This document shows, in pieces, positions 3,029 to 12,317 of a stretch of DNA of 24,836 nucleotides. Source of the DNA: a bacterium. Its GTDB lineage: Bacteria; UBP18; UBA7526. The position numbers were made by a program, and so were the translations under genes. The notes beneath the pieces were generated by a model that made no database searches, was not told where the DNA came from, and was given only the letters and a program-made list of their open reading frames with translations. The stretch is taken from positions 1 through 24,836 of the forward strand of contig JAUXAI010000011.1 of NCBI GenBank assembly GCA_030619985.1, in the 5' to 3' direction. Position 1 is the first letter of the stretch. Each line of letters opens with the position of its first letter.

Positions 3029-3152
3029 ACGCAGATCAAAACGCTGATGCCGGATGCGCTTCGCTGGCATCCGAGAGAGCATGAATATCAAGCAATGACC
3101 ACAGATAAATCTGCGAAAATCTGCGCCATCAATCAGCGGCAATCTGCGTATA
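3019..3152. repeat. Composite intergenic repeat between smpB and ssrA
   Basis: The segment begins inside the last codons of smpB (GCAGATAAACGCAGAT supplies its stop). It continues with a hairpin GGATGC...GCATCC (3052-3072) and then a block at 3102-3152. That block recurs at 11396-11446 with only 2 differences in 51 bases. The hairpin block and its flank (GGCATCC, AGAGAGCAT) recur in degenerate form at 12203-12262. It is a mosaic of dispersed repeat pieces with no credible gene. Confidence 0.75.
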
Positions 3153-3157
3153 AGAAA

Positions 3158-3505
3158 GGGGGCGAAAAGGTTTCGACAGGGATATTTAATCTAAAAGGAG
3201 CATGCCGGCCTCGTCAGGTCGCCGTAAAATACCTGGCAGAAACTTAATTGCCAACGAGCAATTAGCTTACGTCTGCTAAAGAGCAGGCACGCTCCTCCCA
3301 TCTCGCCTGTGGGATGGGATGTGGGTGTCAGAGACACAGGATAGTCTCTTCTCCTTGTTTGAGGAAGAGGAGATGAAAACACATCAAACTGGTCTCGATC
3401 AATCCTGCTAACAGGAGTGATCGAGATGAGAGAAAAATGTTGGCTAAGCATGTAGCGCCCTTAGAGCAATATTCCTGGACAGGGGTTCGATTCCCCTCGC
3501 CTCCA
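3158..3505 (+). ncRNA. ssrA: tmRNA (SsrA)
   Basis: One-piece tmRNA that rescues stalled ribosomes with SmpB. The 5' end GGGGGCG pairs with CGCCTCC near the 3' end (3498-3504, one G-U) to form the tRNA-like acceptor; A3505 is the discriminator and CCA is not encoded. Typical landmarks are AAGGTTTCGACAGGG, GGAGCATGCCGG, a PK1-like pseudoknot (CGGC/GCCG interleaved with CAGGT/ACCTG), GCTAAGCATGTAG and the T-arm CAGGGGTTCGATTCCCCTG-like segment. The best tag frame is 3250-3279 (GCC...TAA), giving ANEQLAYVC. This lacks the usual LAA end, so the tag assignment is less certain than the RNA itself. Confidence 0.93.
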
Positions 3506-3536: not shown

Positions 3537-5006
3537 ATGGTGAAGAGAATTTCGATTGGGCTGGTGGTCACAGCCCTCATAGCATTAATTGCCTTGCCCC
3601 TCTTAGCTCAGCAAGAGGAGATTAAGGTCATCTACGATGAGGGACAGGCAGAGGCCACCGTAAAGTCCCTCATCTTTCAGGGAACAGACTTCGTCTACCT
3701 GAAAGAGATGGTCAAGCTCTTCCGGCTTGATCTAGAATGGGATGCCATTACCAAGAAGGTCACTCTAACCTCTGGACCAGACCAGGTCATCTTCTTCGTG
3801 GGCAGCTCCCAGGTCATGGTCAATAATAGAATCAAGAGAACCACCCAGCCCTCCCGTTTTAGTAATGGAGCCATCGTTCTGCCCATAGAGTTCCTGAGCG
3901 AGATATTGGATGGGGTCTTGAAAGCCAAGATCGATTGGGAGCCCAAGACGAGGATCTTGAAGGTCAGTGGGGGAAGGCTCAATGTCCGGGGAGTGAGGCA
4001 CTCCTCCTATTTCGATTCCACAAGGATCGTCATCGATCTCCTAAAGCCCTTAAACTATAGGGCGAGGAAGGAACTCCCCGATCAGGTCATTATAGATGTC
4101 TATGGTGGAGAGTGCAATCCGGGAGAGTTATCCCTGGAGATAAACGATAGTCGGGTAAAGAATATCCAGGCCTTCCAGCTGCCCAATGCTACCCAAATCG
4201 TGGTAAGACTTATCCAGGACCTTCCCTACAAGGATTTCACCCTAAAGAATCCCCATCGCATCGTTCTGGATATTAACCCTCCCCAGAAGAGGTTGGACTA
4301 TAAGATCACCACCATCGTCATTGATCCAGGACATGGAGGGAAGGATCCGGGAGCCATAGGAAGGGGAGGGACGAGAGAGAAGGATATCGTCTTAGCCATT
4401 GCCAAGGAATTGAAGAGGCTGATTAGCGAGAGGCTGGGGATAAGAGTAGTCTTAACCAGGACCGGAGATTACTTCGTTCCTCTGAGAGAGCGTACCGCGC
4501 GGGCAAATAATGAAAGAGCAGACCTATTCATCTCCATCCATGCCAATGCCGCTCTGGGAAGAGCGCGCGGAGGAGGCTTTGAAACCTACTTCCACTCCCT
4601 GGCCTTGACCAAGGAGGCCAAGGCAGTAGCCAGGCGTGAGAACGCGGTCATCAGATTGGAGAAGGGGAGTAGAAGAGCTATGAGCCAGGCAGATTTCATC
4701 CTGTGGGATATGGCCCACAATACTTATTTGAATGAGAGCAGCGAGCTGGCCATTCTGGTCCAGGAGGGATTGGACAAGAAGCTGAAAATTAGGAATAGGA
4801 AAGTGGACCAGGCCCACTTCTATGTTCTATCTGGAGCGGATATGCCTTCCATCTTAGTGGAGGTGGCCTTCATCTCTAACCCTAGAGAGGAGAGTATGTT
4901 AAGGAATCCCAATTTTCAGAAGAGGGTGGCAGAGGGCATCTATAATGCTATCGCCCTTTATAAACGAAACTTTGAGAGAAGCATGGGCCTGGTAACCACG
5001 GATTAG
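3537..5006 (+). CDS. N-acetylmuramoyl-L-alanine amidase (AMIN plus Amidase_3), exported
   Basis: A 489-residue cell-wall hydrolase cleaving the amide bond between N-acetylmuramic acid and the stem peptide. A signal peptide (KR, then IGLVVTALIALIALPLLAQQ) targets it to the periplasm. Residues about 30-142 resemble the copper-amine-oxidase-N/'stalk homology' fold, 147-248 an AMIN domain that localises amidases to septal or polar wall, and 258-475 a zinc amidase. The zinc and catalytic residues are visible: H266 (VIDPGHGGKDPGA), E281 (TREKDIVL), H335 (SIHANA) and E442 (LVEVAFISN). It resembles AmiC-type enzymes and is longer because of the stalk domain. Its stop codon TAG lies in a CACGGATTAGCACAGATT repeat. 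Confidence 0.94.
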   Translation: MVKRISIGLVVTALIALIALPLLAQQEEIKVIYDEGQAEATVKSLIFQGTDFVYLKEMVKLFRLDLEWDAITKKVTLTSGPDQVIFFVGSSQVMVNNRIKRTTQPSRFSNGAIVLPIEFLSEILDGVLKAKIDWEPKTRILKVSGGRLNVRGVRHSSYFDSTRIVIDLLKPLNYRARKELPDQVIIDVYGGECNPGELSLEINDSRVKNIQAFQLPNATQIVVRLIQDLPYKDFTLKNPHRIVLDINPPQKRLDYKITTIVIDPGHGGKDPGAIGRGGTREKDIVLAIAKELKRLISERLGIRVVLTRTGDYFVPLRERTARANNERADLFISIHANAALGRARGGGFETYFHSLALTKEAKAVARRENAVIRLEKGSRRAMSQADFILWDMAHNTYLNESSELAILVQEGLDKKLKIRNRKVDQAHFYVLSGADMPSILVEVAFISNPREESMLRNPNFQKRVAEGIYNAIALYKRNFERSMGLVTTD

Positions 5007-5060
5007 CACAGATTCTTCTCTGTCAAAGGCGAGGGTTAGTCGATGAGCACAGATAAAGGA
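4996..5060. repeat. CACGGATTAGCACAGATT-type repeat at the amidase 3' end
   Basis: Starts with CCACGGATTAGCACAGATT across the amidase stop codon and ends with GAGCACAGATAAAGG. The opening 17-mer recurs at 12176 just after the clpP stop. No gene is present. Confidence 0.65.
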
Positions 5061-11338: not shown

Positions 11339-11446
11339 ACGCAGATGAGCGCAGATGGCAAGGAAGAGTAAACGGAATAGGGACGCAGATGACCGCAGAT
11401 AAATCTGCGAAAATCTGCGCTGTCAATCAGCGGCAATCTGCGTATA
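11317..11446. repeat. GCAGAT-type composite repeat at the trigger factor 3' end
   Basis: ACGCAGAGACGCAGAAAATAG supplies the last codons and stop of tig, followed by further ACGCAGATGAGCGCAGATG units. The block 11396-11446 matches 3102-3152 (behind smpB) with 2 differences in 51 bases. No gene is seen in the 230-base spacer before clpP beyond this repeat and the leader described separately. Confidence 0.75.
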
Positions 11447-11467
11447 GAAGGGAAGAAGAAAAGATGA

Positions 11468-11571
11468 ATCCCGTTAGACCTATATAGGTATTTTCTGTAG
11501 TGGGGTCAACGGGAATACAAATAGATAAGAAAGCAAAAACTTAAAATTTAAGAAAGGAGGTCTAACGGGAT
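11468..11571 (+). promoter_or_regulatory. clpP leader with SD-sequestering inverted repeat (candidate)
   Basis: Arm A, ATCCCGTTAGACCT (11468-11481), is perfectly complementary over 14 bases to arm C, AGGTCTAACGGGAT (11558-11571). Arm C contains part of the Shine-Dalgarno AAAGGAGG (11553-11560) and the first two bases of the clpP start codon. A third segment, arm B (GGTCAACGGGAAT, 11504-11516), can also pair with arm A using bulged bases. A-B and A-C are mutually exclusive, so one would free and the other hide the start site. ACCTATATAGGT (11479-11490) is also self-complementary. What is seen is the complementarity; a regulatory role is inferred. Confidence 0.6.
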
Positions 11572-12172
11572 GAACGAGAGAGAATTGAGGGAGAGATGGA
11601 AGTTAGAGGAATTAGCCAATATCTTTGTCGGTCTCATGAAGCACCGCATCCTTTTCTTAGGTGCCAGTTCTGTAGATCAAGAAGGCCGACCAATAGTGAC
11701 CGATATCGATGCCAATCGTCTCATCGGCCGCCTCTTATACTTAGAGGCAGAGGATCCTGATAAAGATATTGCCTTATACATCAATTCACCCGGGGGAGCA
11801 ATATCGGGAATGCTCGCTCTCTATGATACCATCCAGTATATTAAGCCCGATGTCTCAACCATATGCGTTGGTCAGGCAGTCTCAGCTGGTGCTTTGCTTT
11901 TAGCAGCAGGGAAGAAGGGGAAGAGGTTTGCTCTCTCTAATGCCAAGATCATGATTCATCAGCCCTCCGGGGGAGCAATAGGCACGGCAATAGATGTCGA
12001 TATTGAGGCCAAGGAATTGATGAGGACCAGAAAGAGACTGAATGAGATTTTGGCAAAGCATACTGGACAGCCCATAGAGAAGATCGAGAAAGATACGGCA
12101 AGAAACTTCTGGATGAGCGCTGAGGAGGCCAAGGCCTACGGGCTCATTGATAAGGTAATTACCACCCGCTAA
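11570..12172 (+). CDS. clpP: ATP-dependent Clp protease proteolytic subunit (ClpP-type, altered triad)
   Basis: A 200-residue S14 serine peptidase that should form the two-ring barrel fed by Clp ATPases. Clear landmarks are [20 protein letters not shown], the nucleophile S105 in [15 protein letters not shown], and H130 in IMIHQPSGG. The third triad residue, Asp in most ClpP (DTERD before FMSAEEA), aligns with Asn: [14 protein letters not shown]179. The N-terminal part is a little longer than usual around residues 33-48. It lies between tig and lon with no clpX next to it. It could be an active variant or a paralogue working with another ClpP elsewhere. A strong SD is overlapped by an inverted repeat. 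Confidence 0.92.
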
Positions 12173-12317
12173 ATCACGGATTAGCACAGATTGATTAAAC
12201 TGATTACAGGATGCACTTTGTTGGCATCCTAGAGAGCATAAATAATTAAGCATTGGCACGGATTTATTGATGTGCATCAGTGCTAATCTGTATCTTTTAA
12301 TCCGTCCCATCCGTGTT
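12173..12317. repeat. CACGGATTAGCACAGATT repeat between clpP and lon
   Basis: Starts immediately after the clpP stop with ATCACGGATTAGCACAGATT and ends with partly complementary GTGCTAATCTGT and AATCCGT segments (about 12280-12317), so it could fold on itself. The middle part (12203-12262, GGATGC...GCATCC, then AGAGAGCATAAAT) matches 3046-3105 in degenerate form. No gene is seen. Lon's SD AAGGAG (12318-12323) follows directly. Confidence 0.7.

Follow-up and report, generated by a model that had tools for sequence, protein, structure and literature searches.

The question raised by this locus is why the start of clpP should lie inside one arm of a perfect inverted repeat. In the window, i.e., the whole stretch of 24,836 nucleotides that was analysed (all features below are on its + strand), arm A (ATCCCGTTAGACCT, 11468-11481) is complementary at 14 of 14 positions to arm C (AGGTCTAACGGGAT, 11558-11571), which spans the AGG of GGAGG (11556-11560) and the AT of the ATG at 11570; a third segment, arm B (GGTCAACGGGAAT, 11504-11516), can pair imperfectly with arm A. 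Chance is a very unlikely origin, as the initial annotation held, with about 0.014 perfect 14-nt repeats expected and A-C being the only one in the whole window with arms this close. Folding of 11460-11600 gave -30.9 kcal/mol (z = -3.65), and the minimum-energy stem was A-C. The annotation had proposed a switch specific to clpP, with exclusive A-B and A-C folds acting as a thermosensor, a protein-bound leader or an autoregulatory device, or alternatively a dispersed palindromic repeat made of A and B, with arm C as the remnant of another copy.

The window's family (f1) comprises six genomes (G000-G005), and clpP was compared across it. The site is uninterrupted in G002, where it reads GGAGGAAGAAAAGATGAACGAG, and clpP of G001 and G004 has a native Shine-Dalgarno (SD) sequence without the element. 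G000 carries the full element, with GGAAGAAGAAAAGATGAA followed by TCCCGTTAGACC...AAAGGAGGTCTAACGGG and then ATGAACGAG, and G003 has the right end alone (AAAGGAGGTCTAAACGGGATGAATGAG), an instance of decay of the element down to this end and the SD in it. Since ATGAA now stands twice around DNA that these relatives lack, the element must have entered the clpP start codon. Alignment with the uninterrupted site GAAGAAAAGATGAACGAG of G002 identified the first ATGAA of the target duplication (11464-11468) as the original clpP start codon, and comparison with the relatives identified the right copy (11570-11574) as the rebuilt one. Relative to the uninterrupted site, the inserted DNA is 106 bp long (11469-11574) and comprises the element and the second ATGAA. 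The inverted repeat proper is CCCGTTAGACCT/AGGTCTAACGGG, at 11470-11481 on the left and 11558-11569 on the right, and the adjoining A/T bases of the arms are part of the duplicated ATGAA. The right end brings the SD sequence AAAGGAGG (11553-11560), after which clpP (11570-12172; 200 aa; Pfam CLP_protease) follows with an N-terminus that is conserved in five family genomes. We consider it very probable that the clpP hairpin is one copy of a non-autonomous element resembling miniature inverted-repeat transposable elements (MITEs), inserted in the start codon with duplication of ATGAA. A dispersed palindromic repeat was thus right in kind, although arm C is no remnant of another copy, A and C being the two ends of a single one.

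Further copies show how the element is built. The terminal inverted repeats are 12 bp long (YCCCGTTAGANNN/NNNTCTAACGGGR) and the element usually measures 70–125 bp, with a length peak at 50–150 bp and no ORF besides leader frames, i.e., it is short and without a transposase gene. Across 167 copies the ends pair over exactly 12 bp: the outermost 9 bp are fixed by our search pattern, positions 10-12 match within a copy in 92–94% of cases while varying between copies, and pairing drops to 37%, the background level, at position 13. Because the ends of a DNA element would match as well, these inner bases were not used as evidence for RNA pairing. The target duplication is 4–5 bp and of the form RTGNR, and an exactly matching 4-bp duplication was found in 46 of 66 patescibacterial copies; leaving out TGAA, it was present in 20 of 29 copies, compared with 3.4 expected with shuffled partners. 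The duplicated word changes from copy to copy, on the two sides together (ATGAA, ATGAG, ATGGA, ATGCG, GTGAA and RTAAA). Tandem copies were seen at L138, L293 and L297, where one ATGAA is shared between neighbouring copies (ATGAATCCC...GGGATGAATCCC...GGGATGAAA) and points to repeated insertion in one start codon.

Within the window's family, copies were found at leuD, pgsA, an arsR-like gene and others. A search of the 1.25-Mb genome, which the annotation had proposed, returned CCCGTTAGACC eight times, all of them element ends; three sets are pairs about 90 nt apart, and in a fourth, at pgsA, one of the arms has diverged. TCTAACGGGATGA had 4–6 matches in each of five of the six f1 genomes and one match in 92 other genomes, and its reversed control likewise gave about one match per collection. 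At leuD the element is present in G000 and G002, and the site is uninterrupted in G001, although the element is accompanied there by a few additional bases; at rpsF, G004 and G005 have the right end alone. A clean uninterrupted site was looked for at pgsA in the relatives and not found, the upstream sequences being too divergent. The right end, GGAGGTCTAACGGGATGAA, lies directly at the ORF start of clpP, leuD, pgsA and other genes, and about 12 f1 genes have a right end and lack a left arm, as would be expected if the recurring GGAGGTCTAACGGGATGAA were a conserved translation-initiation sequence or an operator of the lineage and not a mobile element. We regard this as very improbable, given the clean uninterrupted clpP site, the left arms with the old start upstream, target duplications that vary in step, and the recurrence of these ends in other phyla and at sites that are not genes; right-end-only copies also fit decay after insertion, as in clpP of G003.

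A switch dedicated to clpP also appears improbable, if slightly less so. Its support comes from the A-C stem being the minimum-energy fold, from a start codon predicted to be 35% unpaired with the element and 86–92% unpaired in relatives without it, and from a third arm resembling that of clpP in 10 of 162 copies (1.4 expected). The same arms, however, precede many unrelated genes, and the element is absent from clpP in three of the four relatives and reduced to its right end in the fourth. Conservation or compensation of the arms upstream of clpP, a check proposed in the initial annotation, was absent in G001, G002 and G004, with a truncated copy in G003. At leuD the left arm of G002, one of the two genomes with the element there, has changed from CCCGTTAGA to CCCATTAGA without a compensating change in the right arm, and pairing is thus not maintained. 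The three-arm layout, found in about 6% of copies, makes the alternative A-B fold a minor subfamily trait, and A and B are not the repeat itself, B being an extra internal arm that resembles a right end. A search of Rfam returned no family above the gathering score. RNA thermometers were tried as a candidate and set aside: modelled accessibility of the SD and AUG is nearly flat from 25 to 60 °C and the stem stays closed, which makes the proposed thermosensor unlikely. The element resembles RNA thermometers and SD-sequestering leaders in that its stem covers part of the SD and the AUG, and differs from them in that it is not conserved at clpP, shows no modelled melting and places the same stem before unrelated genes. 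Based on the folding model, a stem that holds part of the SD and AUG is physically plausible in transcripts of the mobile element and might have a regulatory effect.

Ends of the form YCCCGTTAGA...TCTAACGGGR occur in Patescibacteria, Omnitrophota, WOR-3 and Planctomycetes. The pattern AATCCCGTTAGA-N70-100-TCTAACGGGAT matched at least 119 further stretches in GTDB genomes. Most of these belong to Patescibacteria, and Omnitrophota, WOR-3, Planctomycetes and Firestonebacteria are also represented; one viral contig matched as well. An ends-only search of 14 whole genomes gave 1–26 copies per genome and no control matches. No autonomous copy or transposase was found among the loci examined, where long end pairs either joined adjacent copies or flanked unrelated genes by chance, and mobility is therefore deduced from the duplications, the uninterrupted sites and the dispersal; transposition would depend on a transposase acting in trans. 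Transposases of the Y1 type are not known to make target duplications. Y1_Tnp was tried as the obvious mobiliser and rejected, being absent from all six f1 genomes and, where it was found elsewhere, not flanked by element ends. Short palindrome-bearing repeats in many copies, together with Y1_Tnp genes in some host genomes, would suit a REP element whose mobility depends on a Y1 (RAYT, IS200/IS605) transposase, but these absences and the presence of target duplications make this very improbable. Like REP/RAYT palindromic repeats (PMC3733652), the element is a small dispersed palindrome; unlike them, it shows no GTAG/CGTC tag in the copies seen, has no linked Y1 transposase and duplicates its target.

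Judged by its repeats, target duplication, dispersal and uninterrupted sites, the element is a MITE by structure, and its start-codon preference and its way of keeping the gene readable are unusual. Correia elements are one bacterial example of MITEs. Others are MITEAba12 of Acinetobacter (PMC6382973) and the MITEs of Pseudomonas syringae (PMC3189936). The element shares with MITEs its short length without a transposase gene, its terminal inverted repeats, the target duplication and the many copies, and some MITEs alter the expression of their neighbours, as this element may. It differs from known MITEs in that the majority of its copies occupy a start codon and restore it, with an SD or a leader ORF inside the element, in that its partner transposase was not found in the loci examined, and in that its ends are common to several candidate phyla. 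We found no description of the element among open-access papers.

The initial annotation had also considered many copies at random sites unrelated to start codons; the copies are indeed many, but they are not random, most lying exactly in start codons. In most stretches recovered by the pattern search, ATG precedes the match and GAA follows it, though the pattern demands nothing outside its own letters, and in about 90% of the at least 119 stretches the right ATG opens a plausible gene. Pfam domains begin at residue 3 (SSB, S8, L22) or 5 (AlaRS, SecE) of the rebuilt genes, and ClpP and RRF were likewise confirmed by Pfam; target genes include ssb, rpsH, rplV, alaS, secE and clpP. Simple ORF rules were used to call genes. 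Among the 66 patescibacterial copies from the ends-only search, 49 (74%) terminate precisely where an ORF of 50 aa or more begins, and two others are tandem copies. A count over 861 kb of such genomes gave 1798 non-coding ATGNR sites to 924 genes, so that at most about half of the acceptable sites, more likely a third, are gene starts; compared with this estimated one third, the excess at start codons has p ~3e-11. The enrichment is real, and it may come from targeting, from survival after insertion or from both.

Selection after insertion could suffice if the element enters any RTGNR and survives only where a gene start is rebuilt in a compact genome, an explanation to which we give roughly even chances. 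The target is a short sequence found in many start codons, insertions inside coding regions would be purged, and copies at RTAAA and other sites away from starts occur in f1 and WOR-3; for WOR-3 copies and C/G-ended f1 copies, most sites are not gene starts. Against selection alone stands the occurrence of 74% of copies at gene starts when these are estimated at about a third of patescibacterial non-coding ATGNR sites. Specific targeting of start codons by an element family spanning several candidate phyla, built to be harmless through a duplicated start, a leader ORF, and its own SD or reinitiation, is a reading that we put a little short of even. In WOR-3 (L267-L270), RTAAA-like duplications were seen away from gene starts, and some of these may sit at stop codons (TAA).

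At clpP the start now in use is that of the right ATGAA. The native SD has been pushed about 106 bp upstream, and translation most likely relies on AAAGGAGG within the right end, where the paired transcript ends would cover part of the SD and AUG. In f1, right ends carry an SD in 26 of 39 cases at starts and in 4 of 59 elsewhere (p ~3e-10; tallied by hand, with "elsewhere" also taking in the other end of each copy at a start). Outside f1, SD sequences are rare both at the native site (4 of 138) and in the element, with the exception of a CCT/AGG type (4 of 6). The left ATGAA also opens a candidate leader ORF at clpP (11464-11487; ATG AAT CCC GTT AGA CCT ATA TAG, MNPVRPI*), the start of which, MNPVR, is common to nearly all element copies as a putative leader peptide. 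Since codons 2-6 are arm A, a ribosome on this ORF would pass through arm A and could open the stem.

In 45 of 156 copies outside f1, the frame that begins at the original start (MNPVR...) runs through the interior without a stop, compared with 14–19 copies for each of five control frames (p ~1e-9); weighting by cluster gave 34 of 116 (p ~1e-7); the test covered six frames of the interior only, since TGA (in ATGA) and TAG (in CGTTAG) close the offset frames of the whole element by construction. Open leaders stop at a TAA beginning 7 bases before the start (TC-TAA-CGGG-ATG), which leaves a 4-nt gap, or at a TGA overlapping the start (ATGA). Of the 34 copies in the length class that would fuse leader and gene, none has an open leader (p 2e-6 against other length classes, 0.018 against the neutral rate). 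From the sequences, the excess of open leaders suggests translated leaders coupled to the rebuilt start: copies without an SD often keep a leader ORF that opens at the original start and has its stop either 4 nt ahead of the rebuilt start or overlapping it, which could permit termination-reinitiation. An early stop closes the leader frame in 111 of 156 copies, and at clpP it lies at -85, so that such coupling cannot be general and other routes must exist in the 71% of copies that lack the signature. The arrangement recalls coupled initiation from 5'-terminal upstream AUGs and leader ORFs in Escherichia coli (PMC4965119), where an mRNA likewise has an AUG ahead of a second start; in contrast to that case, the upstream AUG here arose when the original start codon was duplicated, and a mobile element brings the leader frame. 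An internal -10 promoter was also sought at the right end, where TATAAT-like hexamers numbered 23, below the 45 in a shuffle of left-flank composition, so that a restoration of leaderless starts by the element finds no support. In the patescibacterial left flanks themselves (L116-L234), TATAAT-like boxes were present in 69, compared with 45 in shuffles, and peak 11–15 nt before the original start, as for leaderless transcripts.

If this account is correct, a mobile element that rebuilds the translation start of essential genes has thereby gained a safe place within them, in tiny genomes with little neutral space. It would act as a movable 5' leader before genes for ribosomal proteins, replication and proteolysis in Patescibacteria and further uncultured phyla, where predicted N-termini and annotated ribosome-binding sites would change (MNPVR... 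leaders), and would offer a testable case of a displaced start codon still in use where SD sequences are rare.

Several other repeats and one further copy were observed. A 75-bp dispersed repeat, 85% identical and with CGCAGAT/ATCTGCG words, lies at 3095-3169 and 11389-11463 of the window; this repeat ends immediately before the clpP element and before the tmRNA, and is also present upstream of clpP in G004. A AACCACGGATTAGCACAGATT-type repeat follows directly after two genes (4994-5014 and 12172-12192), and the similar AATCTGTG words adjoin several right-end-only copies in the window's family. Upstream of pgsA (L393, L391), AACGGAGTGAGGCC|ATG and ACGAAGTGAGGCT|ATG represent a different repeat that abuts start codons and may act as a ribosome-binding site. 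On the viral contig IMGVR_UViG_3300029811_000060 (L400, 3733-3829), a copy sits at a start codon with AAAGGAGGT, which suggests that phages can carry the element.
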